NCBI GenBank assembly: GCA_937865685.1
Contig: CALMGU010000093.1
Location: 1 to 64,000, forward strand
Reading direction: 5' to 3'
Length of the DNA: 64,000 bases
Source of the DNA: an uncultured Alphaproteobacteria bacterium
GTDB lineage: Bacteria; Pseudomonadota; Alphaproteobacteria; Micropepsales; Micropepsaceae
Below, one piece after another: positions 2,838 to 43,746 of this stretch. Under the pieces are notes generated by a model that was not told where the DNA came from, made no database searches, and saw only the letters and a list, made by a program, of their open reading frames with translations. Position numbers and translations under genes: made by a program. Position 1 is the first letter of the stretch. Each line of letters opens with the position of its first letter.

Positions 2838-5768
2838 TCAGTACTTTACGCGAACGCCAATGCGGAAGCTGCGACCGATTGCGTCATAGATATCGTCGCG
2901 AATCGACTGGTCGTAGAAATTGAGCGCATTGGAGGTCGCCGCCGGGATCGGCGGGGGGGTGTTGATGACATTGTCGATGGCGCCATAGAGCTGGATATTG
3001 TCGTTCCATTTGTAGGACGCGCGCAGATCCAGATAGGCGACCGCCGGGATGGCGTTGTTGTCCACGTCCAGGGGGCCCCAGGCATTGTTGAGCTTGGCCG
3101 AGCCGATGATGCGGCTTTGCACGGTGCCCTGCCATGGGCCTTCGATATAGCTTGCCGACAAGGTAGTGCGGAATTTGGGAATGCCGCGCGGCGATGAATC
3201 CGAACCGATGGCGCCGGCATAATCGAGCGTGATGCCCGCCGCCGACTGGCTCTGCTGATCCATGTAATTGCCGATCGCCCGCAGATTGAGCGCGCCGGAC
3301 ATGAACTCCGTCGTGTAGTCCGCCTGGAAGTCCAGACCCGATACGCTTTGGCTGTTGGCGTTGATCGGCTGGGTGGCGACCTGCAGATAAGTGCCCGAGC
3401 CGTTGGTGATGTAGGTGACCTGATTGCAGAAGAGCTGTACGCCCTTCTCGCACTGCGTCGTGATCACGTCAGAGGAGATGGTGGCGATCGCTTTCTTGAG
3501 CTCGATCGAATACCAGTCCGCCGACAGGCTGAGCCCTTCGACCCAATGCGGGGTCAGGACCACACCGCCAGATATGGTGGTCGACTGTTCCGGCTTCAGG
3601 TTGGGATTGCCACCCTGCAAGGAATAGCCGTTGACCGCCGACTGATGGGTATAGGGATCGCGGAACGTCCCCGAGATCGAAAAGCCGCTGGCGAACAATT
3701 CCTGCAAATTGGGCGCCCGGATATCGAACGACCAGGTGCCGCGCAGGCGGATATCGTCATTGACTTGGCTGGTAGCGCCCAATTTCCAGGTTTCGACCAT
3801 GCCGGAGGTGGAGTAGCTGGTGATGCGGCCAGCGGTGTTGAAGTCCAAGGACTGGACGATATTGTCCTTGAGAATCGGGACCGTGACTTCGCCAAAACCT
3901 TCCGCCACGCTGTAGTGACCGGAGAAGGCGGAGAAGTTGCCCACGCTGTATCCCACCGAAAGCGCCGTGGCATCGGCGGTGACGCGTGCGCCTTCCTGGC
4001 GGTATTCCGCGCCGAAGGCCACAGCGACCGGGCCCGCGCCCAGGGACCATTCCTCCGGCAAGGTACCGCTGGCGGACGCCGCGAAGACGTCTTCGTTCAG
4101 CACGGTCTGCGCCCAGTTGCCGCCGGCACGGGCTTTGCCGTTGGTATAGTTGATCGCGGCCTGCGACGCATTGCCGACGCCGAATACATTCAGGGGCGAG
4201 CAACCATTGGTGGGATTGGCCAGGGTCGAACGGCAGGCGATGGAGCCGATCGGCAGACCCGAGGTACCGACATTAGCCGCAGTGACGCGCACCGCATCGA
4301 CGGCGTTGTTGTAGTTCACTTTCTCGACATTGTTAGTCACAACCGTGCGAACACGCGCCAGACCGTGCTGGGCATAGGCGTTCCACGACCAATTGTCGCC
4401 GATCGAACCGTCCAGGCTGAACACGCCGCGGAAGAGTTGGCGGCGGTTGGTGGACACCGGAATGCCCAGCGATTGATTTTCGTTGTTGAGGCTGTTGTCG
4501 GTGAAATGGGCGCCGTTGGTGCCCATATTGTTCATGTTGTTGGTGCCCAGATATAGATATTCATATCCGGCGGCCTGTGCCGCAGCGCGAACCGAATCCG
4601 GCAGGAAGGGATTATCGGCCACGTTGATCGGCACGTTGCTGTAGCGGTTATAGACATAGCTGTTGTTCTTGGAGAAGGACTTGCCGTAGTTCAATTCCAA
4701 GGAGGCGCTGATGTCATTGGTGATCTTGTAGCGGGTATGGCTGAACAGGGTCGTGGTGTGCAGTGGAATGGTGAGGTGATCCAGGTCCGCTTGCGCCGTT
4801 TCCGCACTGCCGCCATTGGAGAAGGCGCCGGAAACGTTGCCGAAATTGAACGGTGCGGGTGTGGCGCTGGTGCCCACGAACTGGATGCCGCGCAGGTTGC
4901 AGGTGGTTACCGCAGTACCTGCGGCACCATTTGGGAGGGCGTGGGCGCAACCGGTGATCAAACCGCCTTGGGTCGCCTGGGATTGTCCGACATTGTTGGC
5001 ATGGATCAGGCGCGGCTGGCCGTTGGCGCCGCCATTATAGGCGGGATTATTGACCAGGCGGGTATTCTTGAACCAGCTGCGCTGGTTGATGAAGAACGTG
5101 TCCGGGCTGGCCAGATAGGAGGCGCTGAGGATGATGTGACCGCGATTGCCGTCGAAATCGGTGCCGTAGGAGATTTCGCCCTTATATTGGCGGTGATCGT
5201 CCTTCCAGGAATCGCTGCCTTCGATATTGGCGGCCAGGCCGTCGAAATTCTTGTTCAGAACCACATTGACCACGCCGGCCACCGCGTCGGAGCCCCAGGC
5301 GGCGGAGGCGCCGCCGGTCACCACGTCGATGCGCTGCACCAGGCTGGAGGGCATGGTCGAAAGATCGACGCCGCTCGAGACGCTGGACGGCACCACGCGC
5401 TGATTGTCGAACAAGACCAGGGTGCGCAGCACGCCCAGCTGGCGCAGATTGACCACGTCGATGCCGGGGGTGGACGACACGATAAAGTTGGCGGAGCTGG
5501 AATTGTTGGGGCCCGAAGAGGTGCCGAATGCCGGCAGCTGGCGGATCACATCGCCGATATCGGTGTGCGCGTCGCGGGCGAGCTGGTCGGCGCCGACCAC
5601 GGTCACCGGCGTGGGCGCCTGATAGCCCTGGATCTGAATGCGCGAGGCGCTGACGATGACTTCTTCGGTTTCCGCGCCCGAAGCCGGGGCCGCCGTCTGG
5701 GCAAAGGCCGAAGAGAATGCCGCCATCGCCATCATCGACGATGCCGCGAGCAGATAGGATTTACGCAT
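2838..5768 (-). CDS. TonB-dependent outer-membrane receptor 2 (large)
   Basis: A 976-residue receptor with a Sec signal peptide (MRKSYLLAASSMMAMAAFSS..AFAQ), a TonB box/plug start (TEEVIVSASRIQ), plug motifs (VLFDNQRVV, IDVVTGGASAAWGSDAVAG, VNVVLNKNF) and a barrel ending in GVRVKY. It belongs to the large alphaproteobacterial receptor type with long, Asn/Ser-rich extracellular loops and several Cys pairs in loops. It starts at ATG with a very strong GGGGGAG site 5 bases upstream. Its own terminator follows it, and two minus-strand hairpins lie upstream. Substrate unknown. It is not closely similar to receptors 3 and 4. Confidence 0.95.
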   Translation of the reverse strand: MRKSYLLAASSMMAMAAFSSAFAQTAAPASGAETEEVIVSASRIQIQGYQAPTPVTVVGADQLARDAHTDIGDVIRQLPAFGTSSGPNNSSSANFIVSSTPGIDVVNLRQLGVLRTLVLFDNQRVVPSSVSSGVDLSTMPSSLVQRIDVVTGGASAAWGSDAVAGVVNVVLNKNFDGLAANIEGSDSWKDDHRQYKGEISYGTDFDGNRGHIILSASYLASPDTFFINQRSWFKNTRLVNNPAYNGGANGQPRLIHANNVGQSQATQGGLITGCAHALPNGAAGTAVTTCNLRGIQFVGTSATPAPFNFGNVSGAFSNGGSAETAQADLDHLTIPLHTTTLFSHTRYKITNDISASLELNYGKSFSKNNSYVYNRYSNVPINVADNPFLPDSVRAAAQAAGYEYLYLGTNNMNNMGTNGAHFTDNSLNNENQSLGIPVSTNRRQLFRGVFSLDGSIGDNWSWNAYAQHGLARVRTVVTNNVEKVNYNNAVDAVRVTAANVGTSGLPIGSIACRSTLANPTNGCSPLNVFGVGNASQAAINYTNGKARAGGNWAQTVLNEDVFAASASGTLPEEWSLGAGPVAVAFGAEYRQEGARVTADATALSVGYSVGNFSAFSGHYSVAEGFGEVTVPILKDNIVQSLDFNTAGRITSYSTSGMVETWKLGATSQVNDDIRLRGTWSFDIRAPNLQELFASGFSISGTFRDPYTHQSAVNGYSLQGGNPNLKPEQSTTISGGVVLTPHWVEGLSLSADWYSIELKKAIATISSDVITTQCEKGVQLFCNQVTYITNGSGTYLQVATQPINANSQSVSGLDFQADYTTEFMSGALNLRAIGNYMDQQSQSAAGITLDYAGAIGSDSSPRGIPKFRTTLSASYIEGPWQGTVQSRIIGSAKLNNAWGPLDVDNNAIPAVAYLDLRASYKWNDNIQLYGAIDNVINTPPPIPAATSNALNFYDQSIRDDIYDAIGRSFRIGVRVKY

Positions 5769-5865
5769 CGGAACTCCCCCTGAGATGAGCCGCCTGTCAT
5801 CGGGGCTCTAGGGAGGAGACGAGCCGCCGGAATGAAACCTCAGGCCCGCCCGGCGATTTTGTCGC

Positions 5866-5907
5866 AAAAAAATGCCCGCTCGCTTTGCAATGCACAATGA
5901 GCGGGCA
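5866..5907 (-). terminator. Second hairpin with T-tract in the receptor 2 leader
   Basis: A perfect 9-bp stem TGCCCGCTC/GAGCGGGCA (5873-5881 with 5899-5907), with a 17-base loop, is followed on the minus strand by seven T (5866-5872). It lies about 100 bases upstream of the receptor 2 start and 30 bases after receptor 3's own terminator. It could be a backup terminator or an attenuator for receptor 2. Confidence 0.75.
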
Positions 5908-5937
5908 GAGACCGGCGGCGCACGACGCGGCCGGGCC

Positions 5938-5978
5938 AAAGAAAAACCCGCCCATCTCTTTCTAGGGAGATGGGCGGG
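5938..5978 (-). terminator. Intrinsic terminator after TonB receptor 3
   Basis: A perfect 12-bp stem CCCGCCCATCTC/GAGATGGGCGGG (5947-5958 with 5967-5978), followed on the minus strand by TTTTTCTTT. It lies 20 bases beyond the receptor 3 stop. Confidence 0.93.
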
Positions 5979-5997
5979 CTGTTTCTAACTTCAGATA

Positions 5998-8700
5998 TTA
6001 GAAGTTGAAGGTGATACGGCCGTAATAGTAGCCGCCGTTGGGCGAGAAGGCCGCGCCAACCGGATCATGCAGCACCAGACCACCGTCGGCCGGGAAACCA
6101 TCCGGCGCCGTCGGCACAACGCTCTGGCGGATGCTGAAGATGTTGTTGCCACCGACCGCCAGACCCAGCTGTTCGGTCAGATTGTACCGGACTTCCAGAT
6201 CGGTGAGGCCCACGCCGGCCTGGTTGTCCGCCGTGAAGTCGGACAAGAGCACGCCGCCATTTTCAGACGTGTAGTTCTTCTGCGGACCATAATAGGTCTC
6301 GCGGAAGGTGATGCCCCACGCGTCCAGCGACCAGTTGGCGGTCAGGCCGACCCTTTCTTGCGGCGCGCTGTGCACGAAGTTGAACAGCCCGCCGGGGTTG
6401 AAGAAGGTCGCGCCCGGATTGGAAGCCAGCAGAATGGCCGGCGGCGGCGCCACGCGCGACAGAGCGGTGGTGTTGTAGTTCGCCGCCAGGGTCCAATCGA
6501 TCAGGCCCATATCGCCGAAGTCGGTCGGGTAGTTCATCGTCAGGTCAACGCCCTGGGTCAGGGTGCTGAGGCCATTGAGGAACGCCGTCACGCCGTTCTG
6601 GGTCGCGGTCGGATCCAGAACGTTGCCGTGCGCCGCGATCGCCACGTTCACCAGCGGGGTGTTGATGGCACCGCCGAGGCTGTTGACGGTCGAGGACGCC
6701 GTGATGCGATCGCCAAGGGCGATGCTGTAGGCATCGACAGTCACGCTGAGATCGCCGAACGGATGGGCGACGATACCGGCGCTGTAGCTGGTCGAAATTT
6801 CCGGCTTCAGGTTGGGCAGGCCCAGGATCTTGGCCGCCGCCGAGTTGGCCGGCAGCTGCACGGTGGCAGAGGTCGGCGAAACGTTGGTGGCGGAGTAGAA
6901 TTCTTCACCCAGCGTCGGGGCGCGGAAACCGGTCGAAATGGTACCGCGAACCGCAAATTGCGGGCTGAAGTCGTAACGGGCCGTGAACTTGCCGATCTGG
7001 GTATCGCCGAAGTCGGAATAATGTTCCGCGCGGCCGGCGATATCGAGCTGGAGAGCCTCGATGGGCGCCAGCGCGAGATCCAGATACACCGCATAGTTCT
7101 TGCGGGTGTGCTTGCCCGCGTCGGTGGACTGGAAGCCAGGATAGGACTGCGAGCCTTCCTTATAGACGGAGGCGGCGTCGCCCTGTGCGATGGCATAATA
7201 GTCTTCGCGGGCTTCCGCACCGATCGCCACCGTCAGAGGCGAGGCCATGCCGACATTGAACTGATGCGAAGCATCGATCGTGCCGGTGAACTGCGCCGCC
7301 GTGAAGGTGCCGTCATAGAAATTGGTCGGCGTGGTGTGGGTGTCGAGGAACAGCGAGGCGTTGCCCGAATCCAGCGTGTAGATGTTGTCGATATCCTTGC
7401 CGTAACCGACATTGGTATCGACGTCCCAGCCCATCACGTTGAACTTCAGGCCCGCATTATACTGATAATCGTCTTCCTTGATGCCTTCCTTGGGACGGAA
7501 GCCGAAGGGATAGAAGATCAGCTCGCCGGGGTCGGTGTAGTTACCCTTGGAACCCGACGCGATGATGATGCCCCTGCTGTTGAGGCCGGCGCCCGGCTGG
7601 CCAGGAGCCGCCGAACCGGCCAGAGCGAACGCACCAGTGTTGCAGGACGCGGTCAGGCCGTCCGCAGTGCTGGACGAAGTCGCATATCCGCCCGGGTTGG
7701 TCGCCGAGCAGGGCTGATTGGAGCCAGGGCTCGCCAGAATGCGGTTGGGCATACGGACATTTTCGTAGGCCTTGCCGATGCGGTGACCCCAGGTGCCGAA
7801 GCCGTAGAGCTGGACATTGTCGGAGAAGTCATAGCCAGCATTCACGCTCGCCATGGTGAGGTTATACTGCGCATCGCCGTTGATCGGGTTGATGCGCGGA
7901 TAGCCGGTCATCTGGCGGATGATGGCATTGGGAACCCCGCCCACCGAGCCGGTCAGCGCCGGATCGCCCGGCAGCGTGCCGTCCACAACGCGCGCGTCAG
8001 CGCCGCCCTGCTGGGTGTAAGTGTGGTACTGCTTGTCGACGGTGACGTTGACGAAGCCCTTGTCGAACAGGGGCAGGCCCATGTTGTAGGAGAAGTCATA
8101 GGTCTCGCCGCCGCGGTCATAGTTGCGGCCGCCGGTGGCGGAGAAAGAACCGCCCGAAGACTTCTTCTTGAGGATGAAGTTCACAACGCCGGCGATGGCG
8201 TCGGTGCCGTACTGGGCGGCCGCGCCGTCCAGCAGCACTTCGACGTGGTCGATCGCGGCTTGCGGGATCAGCGAAATGTCAGGCGAGGCGCCGCCCGAGA
8301 AGGGGCTACCAGCGAGCACATGCAGGTTGCCGGTGGGATGACGGCGCTTGCCGTTCACCATCACCAACGTGTCGTTGGGCGACAGGCCGCGCAGGTTCGC
8401 GGACAAGGTCAGGTTGGCGGTATCGCCACCGAAGGATTGCGCGGTGAAGGAAGGAACCGTCTGGCCCAGGGCGGCGCGAAGGTCGGCCGAACCGGTGTGG
8501 GTCAAGGCATCGCTGCCGAGCACGGTCACGGGCGCGGCGCTGTCGGCAGCGGTCATGCCCTGCACGCGCGTACCGGTCACGATCACGGTTTCGTTTTCAG
8601 CGTTTTGCGCCATGGCGGGCGCGGCTGCCCATGCGAAAGCCGCAACGGACGAGCCCAGAAGCAACGCGTGCTTCAGGTTGAACTTCGACGAAGTGAGCAT
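5998..8700 (-). CDS. TonB-dependent outer-membrane receptor 3
   Basis: A 900-residue TonB-dependent receptor. I chose the ATG at 8700 because AGGGGA precedes it closely and a clean signal peptide follows (KHALLLGSSVAAFAWAAAPAMAQ). Plug motifs: ETVIVTGTRVQGMTAADSAA, LRGLSPNDTLVMVNGKRRH, VEVLLDGAAAQYGTDAIAG, VVNFILKKKSSGG. The barrel ends in YYYGRITFNF. It is paralogous to the receptor at 34611-37379, with the same leader, plug and C-terminus and differing loops, so the pair probably import related ligands. It lies downstream of the amino-acid enzyme operon on the same strand, but about 230 bases with possible operators separate them. Confidence 0.95.
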   Translation of the reverse strand: MLTSSKFNLKHALLLGSSVAAFAWAAAPAMAQNAENETVIVTGTRVQGMTAADSAAPVTVLGSDALTHTGSADLRAALGQTVPSFTAQSFGGDTANLTLSANLRGLSPNDTLVMVNGKRRHPTGNLHVLAGSPFSGGASPDISLIPQAAIDHVEVLLDGAAAQYGTDAIAGVVNFILKKKSSGGSFSATGGRNYDRGGETYDFSYNMGLPLFDKGFVNVTVDKQYHTYTQQGGADARVVDGTLPGDPALTGSVGGVPNAIIRQMTGYPRINPINGDAQYNLTMASVNAGYDFSDNVQLYGFGTWGHRIGKAYENVRMPNRILASPGSNQPCSATNPGGYATSSSTADGLTASCNTGAFALAGSAAPGQPGAGLNSRGIIIASGSKGNYTDPGELIFYPFGFRPKEGIKEDDYQYNAGLKFNVMGWDVDTNVGYGKDIDNIYTLDSGNASLFLDTHTTPTNFYDGTFTAAQFTGTIDASHQFNVGMASPLTVAIGAEAREDYYAIAQGDAASVYKEGSQSYPGFQSTDAGKHTRKNYAVYLDLALAPIEALQLDIAGRAEHYSDFGDTQIGKFTARYDFSPQFAVRGTISTGFRAPTLGEEFYSATNVSPTSATVQLPANSAAAKILGLPNLKPEISTSYSAGIVAHPFGDLSVTVDAYSIALGDRITASSTVNSLGGAINTPLVNVAIAAHGNVLDPTATQNGVTAFLNGLSTLTQGVDLTMNYPTDFGDMGLIDWTLAANYNTTALSRVAPPPAILLASNPGATFFNPGGLFNFVHSAPQERVGLTANWSLDAWGITFRETYYGPQKNYTSENGGVLLSDFTADNQAGVGLTDLEVRYNLTEQLGLAVGGNNIFSIRQSVVPTAPDGFPADGGLVLHDPVGAAFSPNGGYYYGRITFNF

Positions 8701-8727
8701 GCAATCCCCTTTTTTGCGTGTTTTCAT

Positions 8728-8898
8728 AATTAATGTGAGCGGCCCCAAGGCCGCCCGAATAACCGGGAGGTCGTGTAAACCTATCCCAATAATAGACGCG
8801 GAAAAAAGCGCATATGGACTTTAACCGGGCCCGTTGCTGTAATTTGGTACGTAATGATGCAGTCCTGCAACATGGCGTTTTCAGCACATTAATTGTGC
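8728..8898. promoter_or_regulatory. Inverted CACATTAATT copies flanking the receptor 3 promoter region
   Basis: AATTAATGTG at 8728-8737 recurs as its reverse complement at 8885-8894. The second copy sits in a hairpin/dyad with arms GCACA/TGTGC around TTAAT (8884-8898). The pair brackets the only sequence available for the receptor 3 promoter. A regulator site is an inference; no known binding motif was matched. Confidence 0.35.
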
Positions 8899-34610: not shown

Positions 34611-37379
34611 TTAGAAGTTCAGAGTCAGGCGGCCGTAATAGTAGCCGCCATTCGGATCGAACGACGCGCCGACCGGCGGGTTCTGCACCTGGCCGCCGCT
34701 GGCGGAATTGGTGCCGCCATTGGCGCTGAGCGGCGAGCTGGTGAAGCCCACGACATCGCGGCGGATGTTGAAGATGTTGTTGCCGCCGAACGTGACCTGG
34801 AAGCCTTCGGTGATGTTATACCGCGCTTCCAGATCGGTCAGGCCGACAGCGGCCTGGTTGGACGGATACAGCGGGGGGCCGCTGTTCGGAGTGGTGAAGC
34901 CCTTCTGCGGACCATAGAAGGTTTCGCGGAGCGTCACCCCGAACTCATCCAGCGACCAGTTGGCCGTCAGACCAACCTTCTCCTGGGGCGCGCTGTGCAC
35001 GAAATTGTACAGCGTATAGGCCTGGAAGAAGGTCGCATTCGGGTTGGAGGCGGTGAGCACGCCCGGCGTCGGCGAAACCGACGACAGGGAGGTGGAGTTG
35101 TAGTTGCCCGCCAAGGTCCAGTCGACAAGGCCGTACGCGCCGAAGTCGGTGGGATAGTTGACGGTCAGGTCGACGCCCTGGGTCAGCGTGTCCAGACCGT
35201 TCAAGAAGGCGGTGACGCCCACCTGGTTCGCGGTCGGATCCAGAATGTTGCCGTGCGCGATGATCGCCTGGTTGACCAGCGGCACGTTGATCGAGCCGCC
35301 CAGGTAATTCACCGTGCCCGAACGGACGATGCGATCGCCCAGCGACACGCTGTAGGCATCGACCGTGACGCTGAGATCGGCCAGCGGATGGGCGACAAGA
35401 CCCACGCTGTACTGGGTGGAGATTTCCGGCTTCAGGTCGGGCAGGCCCAGCACCTTGGCCGCCGCCGAGTTGGCAGGCAGCTGCACGGTGGCCGCGGTCG
35501 GCGAGACCTGGGTGGCGGAATAGAATTCCTCGCCCAGGTTGGGAGCGCGGAAGCCGGTCGAAATCGTGCCGCGAATACCGATCATCGGGCTGAAATCGTA
35601 ACGGGCCGTGATCTTGCCGATCTGGGCGTCGCCGAAGTCCGAGTAATGTTCGGCGCGGCCGGCGATGTCGATCTGCAATTCCTCGACCGGCGCCACCGCC
35701 AGGTCCAGATACACGCCGTAATTCTTGCGGCTGTGCTTGCCCGCGTCCTGCGGCTGGAAGCCCGGATAGGACTGGCCGCCTTCCTTGTAGCGCGACGCGG
35801 TGTCGCCCGCATCGATGCTGTAGAAATTCTCGCGGCCTTCGAAACCGAACGCGACATTGAGCGGACCGGCCAGGCCGACATTGAAGGAATGGCTGGCGTC
35901 GACGGTCGCCGTCAATTCGCTGGCGGTAAAGGTACCGTCATAGAAATTGGTCGGCGAGGTGTGGGTGTCGATGAACAGCGAACGGTTGGCAGAATTCCAG
36001 GTGTAGATATTCGCCCGGTCCTTGCCGTAGCCCGCGCCGACGTCGATGTCCCAGCCCATCAGGTTGAACTTGGTGCCGATATTGTACTGGTAATCGTCTT
36101 CCTGCAGCACTTCCTGAGGCGAGAAGCCGTTCGGATACATCACGAGTTCGCCGGGCGTATAGAAAGTGCCCGCCTGGCCGGACGAGATGATCTGGCCATT
36201 GGCGTTGAGGCCGGTGCCGTTGACGCCCAAGGGGGAGATGCCGCCGCCGATGCCCACGGCGCAAGCCGGGGTGATGCCGTTGGCCGAGAGCGCCGTGTTG
36301 TAACCCTGGCGGTTGGTGGCCGAGCAGGGCTGGCTGGAGCCCGGCGTCGCGATCACTTGCGACGGCATGCGGACATTTTCCCAGGCCTTGGCGAAACGAT
36401 GCGCCCAGCTGCCGAAGGCATAGACCTGGACGTTGTCGCTGAAGTCGTAGCCCGCGTTCACATAAGACGTGAACAGCTGATATTCGGGGTCGCTGTTGAT
36501 CTTGTTGGCGCGGCCATATTCCGACATGCCGCGGCGATTGGCCAAGGGAACGCAAATGCCGGCCGTGCAAGGCACGACGCCATTGGCGTTGGGGACGAAG
36601 GTATTGTTGCCCGCCGTGGCGCCCACGCCGATCAGGCCTTCCGGCGCTTCGGTGCCGGTGGGGCTGAACAGGCGGGTGTCGTTGCCGCCATTATGGGTGA
36701 AGCCGTGATACTTCTTGTCGGCGGTGATGTTGACGAAGCCCTTGTCGAACAAAGGCAGCGCCAGATTGGCCGAAACTTCGAAGGTTTCACCGCGGCGGTT
36801 GTAGTTCTGGCCGCCGGAAACCTGGAACTGGCCGCCCGAGGATTTCTTCTTGAGGATGAAGTTCACGACGCCGGCGATGGCGTCGGTGCCGTATTGCGCG
36901 GCCGCGCCGTCGAGCAGCACTTCGACATGGTCGATCGCCGCGGTGGGGATCAGCGAGATGTCCGCCGCCGCGCCGCCGCCCGACGAGCCGCCGCCGACGT
37001 TCAAGTTGGACGTGCCGTGACGGCGCTTGCCGTTCACCAGCACCAACGTGTCGTTGGGCGAAAGACCGCGCAGCGCCGCCGCGAGGGTCAGGTTCGCGGT
37101 GTCGCCGCCAAAGGAGTCGGCGGTGAAGGACGGAACGGTCTGGCCCAGCGCGGCGCGCAAGTCGCCCGAACCGGCGCCATGGGTCAGCGAGTCGGAGCCC
37201 AACACGGTGATGGGCGCGGCGCTGTCGGCGGCGGTCATGCCCTGCACGCGGGTGCCGGTCACGATCACAGTTTCATTTTCGGCGGTGGCGTTCTGCGCCA
37301 GTGCGGGCGCGGCGGCCCAGGCAAACGCGGCCATGGACGAGCCAAGCAGCAGCGAATGCTTGAAGTTCATTCTTTGCAT
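34611..37379 (-). CDS. TonB-dependent outer-membrane receptor 4 (paralogue of receptor 3)
   Basis: A 922-residue receptor. Signal peptide MNFKHSLLLGSSMAAFAWAA..ALAQ. Plug motifs ETVIVTGTRVQGMTAADSAA, LRGLSPNDTLVLVNGKRRH, VEVLLDGAAAQYGTDAIAG and VVNFILKKKSSGG are almost identical to receptor 3, and the C-terminus YYYGRLTLNF matches as well. Differences concentrate in barrel loops, and the plug here has a Gly/Ser-rich insert (LNVGGGSSGGGAAADIS). AGGGGA precedes the ATG by 6 bases, as in receptor 3. The pair arose by duplication. Transcription appears monocistronic: a long upstream region and a strong terminator flank it. Confidence 0.95.
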   Translation of the reverse strand: MQRMNFKHSLLLGSSMAAFAWAAAPALAQNATAENETVIVTGTRVQGMTAADSAAPITVLGSDSLTHGAGSGDLRAALGQTVPSFTADSFGGDTANLTLAAALRGLSPNDTLVLVNGKRRHGTSNLNVGGGSSGGGAAADISLIPTAAIDHVEVLLDGAAAQYGTDAIAGVVNFILKKKSSGGQFQVSGGQNYNRRGETFEVSANLALPLFDKGFVNITADKKYHGFTHNGGNDTRLFSPTGTEAPEGLIGVGATAGNNTFVPNANGVVPCTAGICVPLANRRGMSEYGRANKINSDPEYQLFTSYVNAGYDFSDNVQVYAFGSWAHRFAKAWENVRMPSQVIATPGSSQPCSATNRQGYNTALSANGITPACAVGIGGGISPLGVNGTGLNANGQIISSGQAGTFYTPGELVMYPNGFSPQEVLQEDDYQYNIGTKFNLMGWDIDVGAGYGKDRANIYTWNSANRSLFIDTHTSPTNFYDGTFTASELTATVDASHSFNVGLAGPLNVAFGFEGRENFYSIDAGDTASRYKEGGQSYPGFQPQDAGKHSRKNYGVYLDLAVAPVEELQIDIAGRAEHYSDFGDAQIGKITARYDFSPMIGIRGTISTGFRAPNLGEEFYSATQVSPTAATVQLPANSAAAKVLGLPDLKPEISTQYSVGLVAHPLADLSVTVDAYSVSLGDRIVRSGTVNYLGGSINVPLVNQAIIAHGNILDPTANQVGVTAFLNGLDTLTQGVDLTVNYPTDFGAYGLVDWTLAGNYNSTSLSSVSPTPGVLTASNPNATFFQAYTLYNFVHSAPQEKVGLTANWSLDEFGVTLRETFYGPQKGFTTPNSGPPLYPSNQAAVGLTDLEARYNITEGFQVTFGGNNIFNIRRDVVGFTSSPLSANGGTNSASGGQVQNPPVGASFDPNGGYYYGRLTLNF

Positions 37380-39165: not shown

Positions 39166-40416
39166 TCAGTTTTCGCCCGGCGTCAGCAGGCTGTTGGCCA
39201 GCCGCGCGTGAAGCTCGGCCTGGGCGCGTTCGCGTTCCTGGGAGCGGGCGATCCATTTTTCCACCGTGCCCAGGCGTTCGGCGAGCAGTTGCGCGCCGGC
39301 CGCTTCGCCGTCGATCTTGCGGCCCAGATTGCCGAGATCGCCATACAGCACCGCCAGGCGGTCGGCACCGTCATCGAGCTTGCGGCTGAGATTGCCGATA
39401 TCGCCATGCAGTATCGCCAGCCGGTCGGTGCCGCCGTCCAGCTTGCGGGTGACCGTGCCCAGCGTATCGGCGAGCGCTTCGATCCGTTCCACCGAACGGG
39501 CGTTGCGATCCTTCAATTCCGCGATCGCTTTTTCGGCCTGTTCCATCTGGGTGCGATGCTCGCGCAGCGCCAGCGCCGCTTCGCTCAGGACATCGCCTTT
39601 TAAACGGTTCATGTCGCGCGTCAGGCCTTCGTGGCGCGCATCCGCCGCCTCGAGACGGGTTTCCAGCTGTCGGGTGGCCGCGGCGGCGCTTTCACTGGCC
39701 GCGTTCAGATCGTCCTTCAAGGCGGCGCTACGGCGCGCCAATTCGTCATGCATTCCCACCGTGCGCCGCGACAGATCCTCGTGGCGCATATCGCCCGCTT
39801 CGACCCGTTCCTCCAGCTTGCGCAGGGCGACAGCCGCCTGGCTGAGATTGGAGACTTCGCCGCGCAGCATGCGCATATTGTAAGCGAGATCCTCGTTATG
39901 GCCGTCGGCGATCTGCATGCGCTCTTCCAGATGGCGCAGGCCCGCGCGGGTTTCCTCGAAACCGCGCGCACTCACAACTTCGCTGTTGACCACGCGCAGT
40001 TCCAACGCGTCCAGACGCTCGCGGTCGGCGCCGAGCTGATGTTGCAGGGACTGCGCCAAGGCGGCGATCTTCTCGTCCCGCTCGCTGGCGCCGCGCTCCG
40101 CTTCCATGGCAAGGCCGGAAATCACGTTGCAGATTTCGCGAATGGTTTCGCGCAGATGGGCGATTTCAGCACCCTCTTCCAGGCGTGCGATGCGCTGGTC
40201 CAGATCGCTGAAGATGACGGCTTGGCGTTGGGTGCCCGGATCGAATGGCGATCTGGGCGGGGCGGGCGGCGGCTCGTCCGCCGCGGCGAAAGCGGTTTCG
40301 ATCTTCTCGTGCAGCGCGCGCAGGCTTTCGGCGGATGCTTCGTCGGCCACCAGCAGGGCGTTATCCGTCCCATCGACCAGCGGCGGACTCACATCTGACA
40401 CAGCAGCCCGGCTCAT
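39166..40416 (-). CDS. Coiled-coil protein beside the TetR-Sel1 pair, hypothetical
   Basis: About 416 residues. After a Pro-rich N-terminus (ADEPPPAPPRSPFDPG) nearly everything is a predicted coiled coil, with related segments LEERMQIADGHNEDL, LEERVEAGDMRHEDL and LETRLEAADARHEGL, and near the C-terminus a 21-residue tandem repeat (RKLDGGTDRLAILHGDIGNL, RKLDDGADRLAVLYGDLGNL). No signal peptide or membrane helix, so cytoplasmic. I start at ATG 40416 after GGGG. It is divergent from the first TetR-Sel1 gene. The style recalls the coiled-coil half of PodJ-type polarity proteins; this is inference. Confidence 0.8.
   Translation of the reverse strand: MSRAAVSDVSPPLVDGTDNALLVADEASAESLRALHEKIETAFAAADEPPPAPPRSPFDPGTQRQAVIFSDLDQRIARLEEGAEIAHLRETIREICNVISGLAMEAERGASERDEKIAALAQSLQHQLGADRERLDALELRVVNSEVVSARGFEETRAGLRHLEERMQIADGHNEDLAYNMRMLRGEVSNLSQAAVALRKLEERVEAGDMRHEDLSRRTVGMHDELARRSAALKDDLNAASESAAAATRQLETRLEAADARHEGLTRDMNRLKGDVLSEAALALREHRTQMEQAEKAIAELKDRNARSVERIEALADTLGTVTRKLDGGTDRLAILHGDIGNLSRKLDDGADRLAVLYGDLGNLGRKIDGEAAGAQLLAERLGTVEKWIARSQERERAQAELHARLANSLLTPGEN
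39317..39442 (-). repeat. 63-bp tandem repeat (two units) in the coiled-coil gene
   Basis: Two in-frame 63-bp units (39317-39379 and 39380-39442) encode a 21-residue repeat of the pattern RKLD-G-DRLA-L-GD-GNL; a degenerate unit continues on the C-terminal side. The units differ at scattered bases, so it is an old duplication. Confidence 0.8.
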
Positions 40417-40510
40417 GCTTTTGCCCCGTAAACTAATGGCCGGATTGTCAGCCAATAGAGTTAACTCCGCCTTACCAAGGAAAGTACAGCTGCAAGCAGT
40501 TGATTCTATA

Positions 40511-40592
40511 AGAAAAAACCAAAAACTTCCAGCCCTTGGCCGGCGAGAGCGGTCCGCGCCCTTCTTGGCCGCCCGCAAAGGGCGCGGCCAAG
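40511..40592 (-). promoter_or_regulatory. Possible attenuator leader of the coiled-coil gene
   Basis: On the minus strand there is first a perfect 10-bp stem CCGCGCCCTT/AAGGGCGCGG (40554-40563 with 40578-40587). This competes with an 8-bp stem CTTGGCCG/CGGCCAAG (40564-40571 with 40585-40592). Next comes a hairpin CCGGCC-AAG-GGCTGG (40529-40543) followed by TTTTTGGTTTTTT. This terminator-like element lies about 100 bases before the coiled-coil gene ATG, in the same direction. It could be an attenuator, or a terminator protecting the divergent promoters. Confidence 0.5.
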
Positions 40593-40680
40593 ACCGGCAA
40601 AGCGCGAACTATTTTAACCAAAAGCGTCGGAAAATGGGGCCGGACCGACAGATGGGTCACCGGAAGTGGATATTCGTGAC

Positions 40681-41703
40681 ATGAGCGGCCCGGCCGGCCC
40701 TGACAAGGCCGCGATACGTTTGATGACCGCCGCACGGATCCTGCTGGGGCGCGGCGACACCCGATTCTCCATCGCCCGGCTTTGCCGGGAAGCCCGCGTG
40801 ACCGAGGGCGATTTCGATCGCCACTTTGAAAACCGCGCGGCCTTGTTCCAGGCATTGGTGAAGCCCTCCGCGGCCGAAGCCGCGTTGGAAAAGCGCATCG
40901 GCCTGTTCGAGCAAAGTCTTGCCGATTTGAGCGACAATGTCCGCAAGGCGGAACATGCGCAGGCCGAGGCCATCGCGCGCCTGGAAGAAAAGATGAGAGG
41001 TACCGGACGGCTAGGCTATTTCGGGCCGCTGTATCGCGCGGCGCGGCGCTGGCGTTTGCCGCTGCCGTCGCGCCGCATGGCGATGGTCGGGGTCGCGGCC
41101 TTGCTGGTCGCCATGACGGCGGGAATTCCGTTGCTGCAAGCCGCCCGCGGCAACAGCGCCCCGCGCGATGACGCAGCCGATTCCATTGCGATGCTTCAGG
41201 CCCGCGCCGAGGACGGCGACGCAAAGGCGCAATCGGCGCTGGCATTCACTTATCTTGGCAGTCCCGGCGTCGCGCGCGATGTGTCGGCGGCCGCGCGTTG
41301 GGCGCGGGCGGCGGCGGATCAAGGCGACGCCAACGCGCAATATCTGATCGGCAGCCTCAGCCTGGCCGGAACGGGTGTGCCGCGCGATCCCGGACAGGCG
41401 GTGTCCTGGTTCACGCGCAGCGCGGCGGCGGGCAACGTCAAGGCGATGCACAATCTTGCCATCGCTTATGTGCAGGGCAACGGCGCCCCGAAAAATCCCG
41501 CGGCGGCAGCCAGATGGTTCGCGCGGGCCGCCTCGCAGGGCTATGTCGATTCCGCTTTCGACCTCGCCGTTCTTTACGAGCAAGGCTTGGGCGTCGCGCA
41601 GAGCCCGCGCGAGGCCTTGCGCTGGTACCGCATCGCCGCCGCTTCGGGCGACCGCACGGCCGCGGCGCGGGCCCATTTCCTGGAGACCGACGGACAGCCC
41701 TGA
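40681..41703 (+). CDS. Membrane-anchored TetR-type HTH protein with Sel1 repeats (A)
   Basis: About 340 residues. Residues about 12-60 are a TetR-type DNA-binding domain (MTAARILLGRGDTRFSIARL, then VTEGDFDRHFENRAALFQAL). A short coiled coil follows (FEQSLADLSDNVRKAEHAQA), then one transmembrane helix (MVGVAALLVAMTAGIPLLQA, about 133-154), then four Sel1/TPR-like repeats to the C-terminus, including GNVKAMHNLAIAYVQGNGA and GYVDSAFDLAVLYEQGLGV. The normal TetR ligand domain is absent. N-in topology puts the HTH in the cytoplasm and the repeats in the periplasm. The repeat wording is that of PodJ-type proteins. It is paralogous to the gene at 42349. The start could also be the GTG at 40666. Confidence 0.85.
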   Translation: MSGPAGPDKAAIRLMTAARILLGRGDTRFSIARLCREARVTEGDFDRHFENRAALFQALVKPSAAEAALEKRIGLFEQSLADLSDNVRKAEHAQAEAIARLEEKMRGTGRLGYFGPLYRAARRWRLPLPSRRMAMVGVAALLVAMTAGIPLLQAARGNSAPRDDAADSIAMLQARAEDGDAKAQSALAFTYLGSPGVARDVSAAARWARAAADQGDANAQYLIGSLSLAGTGVPRDPGQAVSWFTRSAAAGNVKAMHNLAIAYVQGNGAPKNPAAAARWFARAASQGYVDSAFDLAVLYEQGLGVAQSPREALRWYRIAAASGDRTAAARAHFLETDGQP

Positions 41704-41809
41704 CAGGCCGCTCAATCCGGGACAGACCCGCCGGATACCGGGAATCCGGGGAATAATTCCTGGCACAGGGCTTGCGCCTGGCTTGTCGAGATCGCGGCAG
41801 GCAGCAGAC

Positions 41810-42211
41810 GTGAAGGCTTTTTCGTTTCATATTGATCCATCGGCACGTTTCGAGGGGCCGCGCAGGCGCATCCGCAAGAGCCGGCTGGATCTGGCGCTTC
41901 AATTCCGGTTGCCACCATCCAAGGCCAAGGCGCCGCCGCCGAAGCCCAAAACCCACCCCCGCAAGCCGCCGCTCAAATTCCTGAACAGCACCAGGGAAAT
42001 TCTGACGGCCCGCCAGATCCGCTACGGGGCGTTCGTCATTTCGACCATGCAACGAAACGACGGAAGCTGGACCGCAAGCTTCGGCCGTGCCGACAATGGA
42101 CCGCTCATCGTCGATGGAAAAAAGCAGGCCGTGATGACGACCGGATCTTATCGCGCGGAATTGCTTGCCCTTGCCGAGGCTCAGATCCGCATCGACATGC
42201 GGGGTTCGTAA
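41810..42211 (+). CDS. Hypothetical protein with a C-terminal small alpha/beta domain
   Basis: About 133 residues from a GTG start preceded by GCAGG. The N-terminal half is very basic and Pro/Lys-rich (RIRKSRLDLALQFRLPPSKA, KPKTHPRKPPLKF). The C-terminal 65 residues form a compact domain (REILTARQIRYGAFVISTMQ, GSWTASFGRADNGPLIVDG, TTGSYRAELLALAEAQIRID) resembling small proteobacterial domains of unknown function. It sits between the two TetR-Sel1 genes in the same direction, so it may belong to their module. A nucleic-acid or membrane contact through the basic part is only a guess. Confidence 0.6.
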   Translation: MKAFSFHIDPSARFEGPRRRIRKSRLDLALQFRLPPSKAKAPPPKPKTHPRKPPLKFLNSTREILTARQIRYGAFVISTMQRNDGSWTASFGRADNGPLIVDGKKQAVMTTGSYRAELLALAEAQIRIDMRGS

Positions 42212-42348
42212 CCAAACCGCCATCGCCGCCCGCCCTGTGAAAAAACTTCGCCGGAACAGGCACATGAGCGTACGCAACGGTACGGGAAAAAATTGCGCAT
42301 CCTAGGCAGTCGTTAAGATTTACAAGATATAAATCCCCTGCCGAAGGG

Positions 42349-43746
42349 ATGAATTCCGGCCCCATGCCAAGCAACTGCGTTCAGGTGGATCTGGTTGAGA
42401 CCGCACGTTCTCTCCTCCTGAGAGATCCGGACCGCTTTTCCGTCGCGGCTTTGTGCCGTGAGACGGGACTGAGCCGCGCGAAGATGCGTCAGCATTTTCC
42501 CAACAAGGCCGCGCTGATGACGGCGTTGCTGAAAGACGAACCGGATGCGGGCGACCCACTTCCCGTACCGGAGGAAAATTCCCGCGAGCCGGATCCCGCC
42601 CCGGAAATCATCGGCGAAGGTTGGATCGAGCGGCGCTTCCGGGTGTTCGAACGCGCCTTGACCCTTCTGGAGCACAAGACCGAAGACGCAGCCGCCGACC
42701 ATTCGCGCGCGCTGGCGATGATCGAAGAACGGCTATACGGGCAGCCCGGCACGCCTCCGCCGGAACCACCGCCGGTCGTGGCTACGACAGAGCCGCCGGA
42801 GGAAATTTCCGTTTCCGATACGGATGTCTCGCCGTCCGTCCCGCCCGCCGCCGGCACGCCGGTGGTGATGCCGCGGCTGGAATTTCAAGCGGCCGGGCCC
42901 GGGTTCGATGCCCGCAAGAAAATGCGCAGCGTTCTGGAAAAGATGCCCGCCGCCGCCGGGACCGCGCCGGAAAAACAACCATACCTGAAACAGATGTCAC
43001 CCTGGCTGATGGCGGGCGCGGGATTGACCGGCCTGGGACTGTTGTTCGGCGGCCTGTTGATGGTCTCTATGGCGCGCAATGCGCCCAAGCCGGCCATGCC
43101 GCAAGCGCGGATCGCCGCCGCGCCGAAACCGGATGCTCCGCAGAAAATCGCCATGGCCGGATATGAAACGGCGGACCATGTGGTGGTCATCGACGCCACG
43201 GGAGCGACACCGGCGCCCGCCGTGCCACAGATCGACCTGCGCGCCGAACGCGGCGACGCCCATGCCAAGGTCGAAACGGCGCTGGCCTATTTGCGCGGCC
43301 AGGATGTCGAGCCGGATGCCGGGGCGGCGATGCGCTGGGTCCAGGCCGCCGCCGCCGAGGGCGACGCCACCGGCCAGCTGATACTGGGATCGCTTTATGC
43401 CAAAGGCATGGCGCCCGATCCGCGGCGCGCCGCGAAATGGTATGCCGCCGCGGCCGCGCAAGGAAATGTGAAGGCGATGCACAATCTTGCCCTCGCCTAT
43501 CTGGCCGGTGACGGGGTGGAGAAAAATTCCGCCACCGCGATCGAATGGTTCACCAAGGCGGCCAATGGCGGCTATGTCGATTCCGCCATGAACCTGGCCG
43601 TGCTTTACGATCGCGGCGAGGATGTGGGCCGCGATCCCCGCGAAGCCCTTCATTGGTATGACGCGGCGGCGGCCAAGGGCGATGGCGAAGCCGAGGGCCG
43701 CGCAAAGGCCCTGCGCCGGCAGCTTTCGCGTCTGGCGGATCGCTAG
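42349..43746 (+). CDS. Membrane-anchored TetR-type HTH protein with Sel1 repeats (B)
   Basis: 465 residues, the same plan as protein A but with a longer linker. The TetR-type HTH is at about 14-62 (ETARSLLLRDPDRFSVAALC, then LSRAKMRQHFPNKAALMTAL). A helical segment (RFRVFERALTLLEHKTEDAA) and a Pro/Glu-rich linker follow, then one transmembrane helix (WLMAGAGLTGLGLLFGGLLM, about 219-243) and four Sel1 repeats from about 302, with GNVKAMHNLALAYLAGDGV and GYVDSAMNLAVLYDRGEDV. The last two repeats are the part most conserved with protein A. It lacks the peptidoglycan-binding C-terminus of PodJ. The start is uncertain because AGGG abuts the ATG. Confidence 0.85.
   Translation: MNSGPMPSNCVQVDLVETARSLLLRDPDRFSVAALCRETGLSRAKMRQHFPNKAALMTALLKDEPDAGDPLPVPEENSREPDPAPEIIGEGWIERRFRVFERALTLLEHKTEDAAADHSRALAMIEERLYGQPGTPPPEPPPVVATTEPPEEISVSDTDVSPSVPPAAGTPVVMPRLEFQAAGPGFDARKKMRSVLEKMPAAAGTAPEKQPYLKQMSPWLMAGAGLTGLGLLFGGLLMVSMARNAPKPAMPQARIAAAPKPDAPQKIAMAGYETADHVVVIDATGATPAPAVPQIDLRAERGDAHAKVETALAYLRGQDVEPDAGAAMRWVQAAAAEGDATGQLILGSLYAKGMAPDPRRAAKWYAAAAAQGNVKAMHNLALAYLAGDGVEKNSATAIEWFTKAANGGYVDSAMNLAVLYDRGEDVGRDPREALHWYDAAAAKGDGEAEGRAKALRRQLSRLADR

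Follow-up and report, generated by a model that had tools for sequence, protein, structure and literature searches.

Two adjacent genes of an uncultured alphaproteobacterium of the family Micropepsaceae, here called A and B, encode proteins in which a TetR-type helix-turn-helix (HTH) domain, a coiled coil, a transmembrane (TM) helix and a Sel1 domain are joined, and we give even chances to the reading that they are lineage-restricted, single-pass inner-membrane one-component transcription regulators with a new domain combination. Both lie in a stretch of 64,000 nucleotides (contig CALMGU010000093.1, assembly GCA_937865685.1), referred to below as the window. The TetR fold, purifying selection on the HTH of a third copy in the same genome, a TetR-like charge and recurrence of the design in 44 genomes support the regulator reading; it is weakened by the failure to find an operator, by the loss of the HTH in genomes G066 and G068, and by the acidic recognition helix of gene A.

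Gene models and domain order

Genes A and B are real open reading frames with good coding scores at the positions given in Table 1. Since the DNA of a relative carries a one-base deletion between GTG 40666 and ATG 40681, the latter is the more likely start of gene A. Proteins of the family share one order, namely HTH, variable linker, coiled coil, proline-rich linker, one hydrophobic helix and Sel1 solenoid. Elsewhere in the window, at 2838-8748 and 34611-37379 on the minus strand, there are large open frames whose starts resemble TonB-dependent receptors.

Table 1. Positions in the window of genes A and B, their domains and their neighbours
Feature	Position	Strand	Remarks
Divergent coiled-coil protein, 416 aa	39166..40416	-	Neighbour, without conserved partner status
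Gene A, 340 aa from ATG 40681 (345 aa from GTG 40666)	40681..41703	+	TetR-type HTH, coiled coil, TM helix, four Sel1 repeats; Pfam, family alignment
Gene A, TetR-type HTH	40711..40866	+	Recognition helix TEGDFDRHFENRAAL, more acidic than that of gene B
Gene A, predicted TM helix, residues 139-157	41080..41136	+	Five basic residues immediately N-terminal
Gene A, Sel1 repeats	41173..41682	+	Predicted periplasmic
Small basic protein, 133 aa, between genes A and B	41810..42211	+	In G025, a weak relative precedes a B-type gene
Gene B, 465 aa	42349..43746	+	TetR-type HTH, coiled coil, proline-rich linker, TM helix, four Sel1 repeats
Gene B, TetR-type HTH domain	42382..42534	+	Pfam, predicted structure, Foldseek, VIA-align
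Gene B, coiled-coil helix, residues 90-130	42616..42738	+	Family signature, in gene B WIERRFRVFERAL
Gene B, predicted TM helix, residues 221-239	43009..43065	+	Hydrophobicity, structure model
Gene B, Sel1 repeats	43240..43692	+	Predicted periplasmic; high-confidence solenoid in model

The N-terminal domain is of the TetR type

A first-pass annotation of the window had proposed a TetR-type domain at the N-terminus of both proteins and named structure prediction as a check. Pfam placed TetR_N in both A and B with 22.3 bits (E 1e-4), narrowly missing the gathering score of 24, and 30 of 37 aligned relatives scanned singly matched the same model, the best at 5.4e-12. HTH_25 was not found by Pfam in the HTHs of the family; TetR_N was found instead. 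When solved structures were searched with phmmer, residues 14-81 of gene B matched the TetR regulator 3jsj (E 0.0025), and Sel1 proteins were also reported. The AlphaFold model of residues 1-135 of B, for which the input consisted only of the window proteins and the relative L012, shows a TetR fold: helices at 8-25, 32-39, 43-49 and 53-62 follow the TetR helix order with a pLDDT of mostly 80-88, and a single long helix (90-130) comes after the HTH. The linker region is of low confidence in the structure model. The matches listed by Foldseek for the HTH model of B were TetR-family chains, SlmA among them, with a probability near 1 and a best E of 0.077, the weak E-values being due to the shortness of the domain. 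VIA-align gave a Z of up to 9.3 over 60 residues at 1.5 A, a score insufficient by itself for a small helical domain; it is on sequence evidence that we regard the TetR assignment as secure, as the first-pass annotation had it.

The same annotation held that the normal TetR ligand domain is gone. Pfam indeed recognized no TetR C-terminal ligand-binding/dimerization domain in A, B or their relatives; a linker and the coiled coil stand at this place. The net charge of the HTH is mostly zero to +6 in the family, similar to that of ordinary TetRs of the same genome. Recognition helices are alike within clades and different between clades in the family alignment, as would be expected if operators differ; most of them carry basic residues, whereas that of gene A is acidic. 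Among the ordinary TetR regulators of the genome, one (L202:2141-2752, on G000:C136) has an HTH near that of the family and is a possible HTH donor. In most genomes of the genus the top match outside the family is an ordinary TetR like this one, and in many cases its gene lies about 13-30 kb away from that of the PodJ-type protein.

The Sel1 part resembles that of PodJ

In both A and B one hydrophobic helix separates the HTH from Sel1, and family-wide the basic residues lie mostly N-terminal to this helix, which predicts that the HTH is cytoplasmic and the Sel1 part periplasmic. Pfam found four Sel1 repeats in each protein (E 1e-32 in A and 3e-28 in B). The coiled-coil signature, DAWLERRLRVFERALxALE, hardly varies within the main clades of the family alignment, and most of the 48 HTH-bearing family proteins carry the near-invariant signature WLERRLRVFERAL. 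Outside the family, the closest Sel1 protein of the same genome was a PodJ-type protein of 893 aa (G000:C117), encoded separately at L010:2913-5594; it scored 112.6 bits, and the runner-up 77.7. The proposed arrangement of a membrane helix followed by a PodJ-like periplasmic Sel1 domain is thus upheld, its periplasmic location by prediction. The N-terminus of the PodJ-type protein itself (L010:2913-3050, PWNVAGIPPEAREAARAAARREGLSVGEWLTRRI) looks ribbon-helix-helix-like by eye.

Some relatives have parted with the HTH. The clade formed by G066 and G068 lost it and kept the coiled coil, TM helix and Sel1 domain, which suggests that these three are of use even where no DNA is bound. In the family gene of G019 the HTH is in a different frame from the rest, through either a frameshift or a sequencing error. 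For the third copy, rather than for A or B themselves, dN/dS among the three close orthologues (G000, G036 and G033) came to 0.064-0.073 in the HTH, 0.01-0.04 in the coiled coil, 0.13-0.28 in the linker and 0.08-0.15 in Sel1. This strong purifying selection argues that the third-copy HTH is not a decaying remnant.

A separate Sel1 membrane protein of G019 (L161:4864-6087, on G019:C24) has DUF6538 at its N-terminus, in the place of the HTH. DUF6538 occurs in phage-type integrases, and here it may be a second DNA-related domain mounted on the same framework.

We considered it unlikely that A and B are PodJ-like scaffolds or tethers, anchored by Sel1 at a pole or at a site of the cell wall, where the HTH would hold chromosomal DNA rather than serve mainly as a gene switch. 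The layout and functions of PodJ have been described (PMC8980812), and the family shares with it a predicted cytoplasmic coiled coil, one TM helix and periplasmic Sel1/TPR-like repeats, in the same order, as well as a Sel1 part that is nearest to PodJ. The loss of the HTH in one clade that kept the rest, and its replacement by DUF6538 in the G019 protein, would also fit a scaffold. However, the cytoplasmic part of the family is much shorter than that of PodJ and has no long multi-coiled-coil region, the TetR HTH stands instead of the PodJ N-terminal signature, and Pfam found no peptidoglycan-binding C-terminus (A, 345 aa; B, 465 aa). The genome, moreover, encodes its PodJ-type protein separately, and there is no sign of many genomic binding sites. 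Of the two roles initially put forward, ToxR-like signaling is moderately favored over a polar tether for A and B.

The family is confined largely to one genus and has no conserved partner

Profile searches combined with region reading recovered 48 proteins with matches to both the HTH and the Sel1 models in 44 genomes, nearly all of one genus; the order-level search set comprised 96 genomes of one family and seven genera. In a class sample of 385 genomes, for which few candidates per genome were scored, all matches listed from other genera started at model position 125 or later, and the HTH-profile matches listed there had open frames about as long as those of ordinary TetRs; rare members in other genera may exist. 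No plasmid record covers 80% of gene B, and all plasmid matches listed fall in its C-terminal Sel1 half. The third copy in the genome of A and B is a protein of 463 aa on G000:C7 (L009).

In a tree of 58 proteins, A grouped with an FTR1-linked G043 gene (100/98), and B with the second copies that G025 and G069 carry (97/95); judged from this tree, A and B are separately related copies that stand side by side on long branches. Family members elsewhere are mostly single genes, not A-B pairs. The idea of two tandem paralogues forming a unit therefore has to be given up.

The coiled-coil gene divergent from A had been annotated as a partner. The gene is present, but a neighborhood survey spoke against a general partnership: full similarity was seen only in G000, G036 and G033 (3 of 96 genomes) and weak similarity in two more, the gene is not adjacent to other family members, and G033, listed as 100% complete, has it without A and B. 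The G036 contig ends at the start of gene A, so that this genome probably has A and gives no counter-evidence to a partnership. In G033, the position of A and B is occupied by a CHAT-domain gene and a trypsin-like protease gene, which suggests that the A-B segment sits at a variable site. The CHAT-domain protein (1328 aa) and the protease beside it are a possible CHAT-protease pair (L129:3310-8610, on G033:C24). The basic small protein reported with A and B is present as well; as a conserved partner it was rejected, a relative being found beside a B-type gene only in G025. A 108-aa neighbor in G069, tried as a further relative, is cupin-like and unrelated.

RodZ has an HTH, a TM helix and a periplasmic domain in this order, and its HTH binds MreB; SlmA is a TetR fold that binds FtsZ. 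An HTH that binds protein in the manner of RodZ or SlmA, as an adaptor between a Sel1 complex of the envelope and a partner in the cytoplasm, is in our judgment quite unlikely for A and B, even though RodZ is a transmembrane protein of like domain order that interacts with MreB, and the acidic recognition helix of gene A would suit such a role. The typical TetR fold is retained, most recognition helices have basic residues, and no partner gene is linked to the family, while RodZ has an HTH of a different type and a periplasmic part that is not Sel1.

Iron-gene context and upstream regions

FTR1 was found directly upstream of the family gene on the same strand in 18 loci, usually with a cupredoxin and often with a P19-type gene, and one or two genes away in 6 further loci (neighbors were identified by Pfam as FTR1, Iron_transport and Cupredoxin_1). 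On the far side there are often AsmA, YihY-like and LemA-like genes. At the third copy, for example, FTR1, cupredoxin and P19-type Fe2+ transport genes are directly upstream of the TetR-Sel1 gene (L009:6052-9230), and likewise at orthologous loci. Upstream of the gene in the FTR1-linked clade, a promoter-like block is conserved (TTGnnn, about 18 bases, GTAA, with spacing taken by eye). Since the block is kept even in G032, where FTR1 is missing, the family gene probably has its own transcription. That the proteins regulate or assist the upstream FTR1/P19/cupredoxin iron-uptake genes is very improbable despite this frequent linkage, which may be inherited gene order only, as A and B have no iron genes alongside, G018, G034, G070 and G075 keep the gene without a neighboring FTR1, and the conserved promoter-like block belongs to the gene itself.

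No palindrome was common to the upstream regions of family genes, and no operator was found there. The pattern CTAGC-N11-GCTAG was rejected as a shared operator because it is confined to G000, G036 and G033, where CTAG is rare. Its single genomic occurrence is in the gap ahead of the third copy (L009:7456-7476), compared to 216 occurrences per strand for the reversed control pattern, so that CTAG seems to be strongly avoided. Upstream palindromes numbered 323 against 226 in simple base shuffles, a weak excess since the upstream sequences are related. The divergent neighbor was dismissed as a general target; it varies by clade (beta-lactamase family, pentapeptide repeat and others).

Discussion

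If A and B are membrane-bound regulators, the coiled coil would dimerize the HTH, replacing the lost TetR C-terminal domain, and the flexible linker would allow the HTH to contact DNA close to the membrane. On the periplasmic side, Sel1 would bind a protein or cell-wall partner and relay its state inward. The targets would include the promoter of the regulator gene itself and, probably, genes for the envelope or for transport.

Transmembrane transcription regulators, described in the main text of a census as proteins for which a DNA-binding domain is predicted together with one or more TM regions, are common in bacteria, and over 50,000 were found (PMC10269533). A DNA-binding domain and a TM region are likewise predicted in one protein in our family, as in the definition given there. 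The main text of that census does not mention TetR or Sel1, though its tables may list TetR cases. No description of a TetR plus Sel1 architecture was found in the open-access literature, in line with the original impression that the layout is without a known description, and the membrane-anchored TetR-Sel1 design appears to be undescribed.

The HTH of the family is like that of TetR/AcrR repressors in fold, helix order and sequence motif; unlike them, the family is membrane-anchored and without a ligand-binding/dimerization domain. With ToxR, TcpP, CadC and HigX it shares a DNA-binding domain and a TM segment in one protein, but ToxR-type regulators use a winged helix and HigX combines LytTR with four TM helices, whereas the family has a TetR HTH, one TM helix and Sel1. 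A Caulobacter membrane-bound transcription factor binds the promoters of envelope genes (PMC13384398). A periplasmic Sel1 solenoid works as signaling input in ExoR (PMC4550343), which differs from the family in being secreted, in having no HTH and in acting via the kinase ExoS/ChvG.

Tentatively, we suggest that TetR HTHs joined to PodJ-type Sel1 domains, with paralogues of differing recognition helices in one genus, may constitute a new class of envelope-to-gene receptors by which polarity or wall state would reach transcription without kinases. Few membrane-bound regulators are understood; the TetR-Sel1 combination adds to their number and joins a polarity-type receptor to a DNA-binding domain. 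The full protein, the clade that lost the HTH and the protein in which it was swapped make up a natural series for probing the role of each part, in a design that probably lets cell-envelope events control genes directly.
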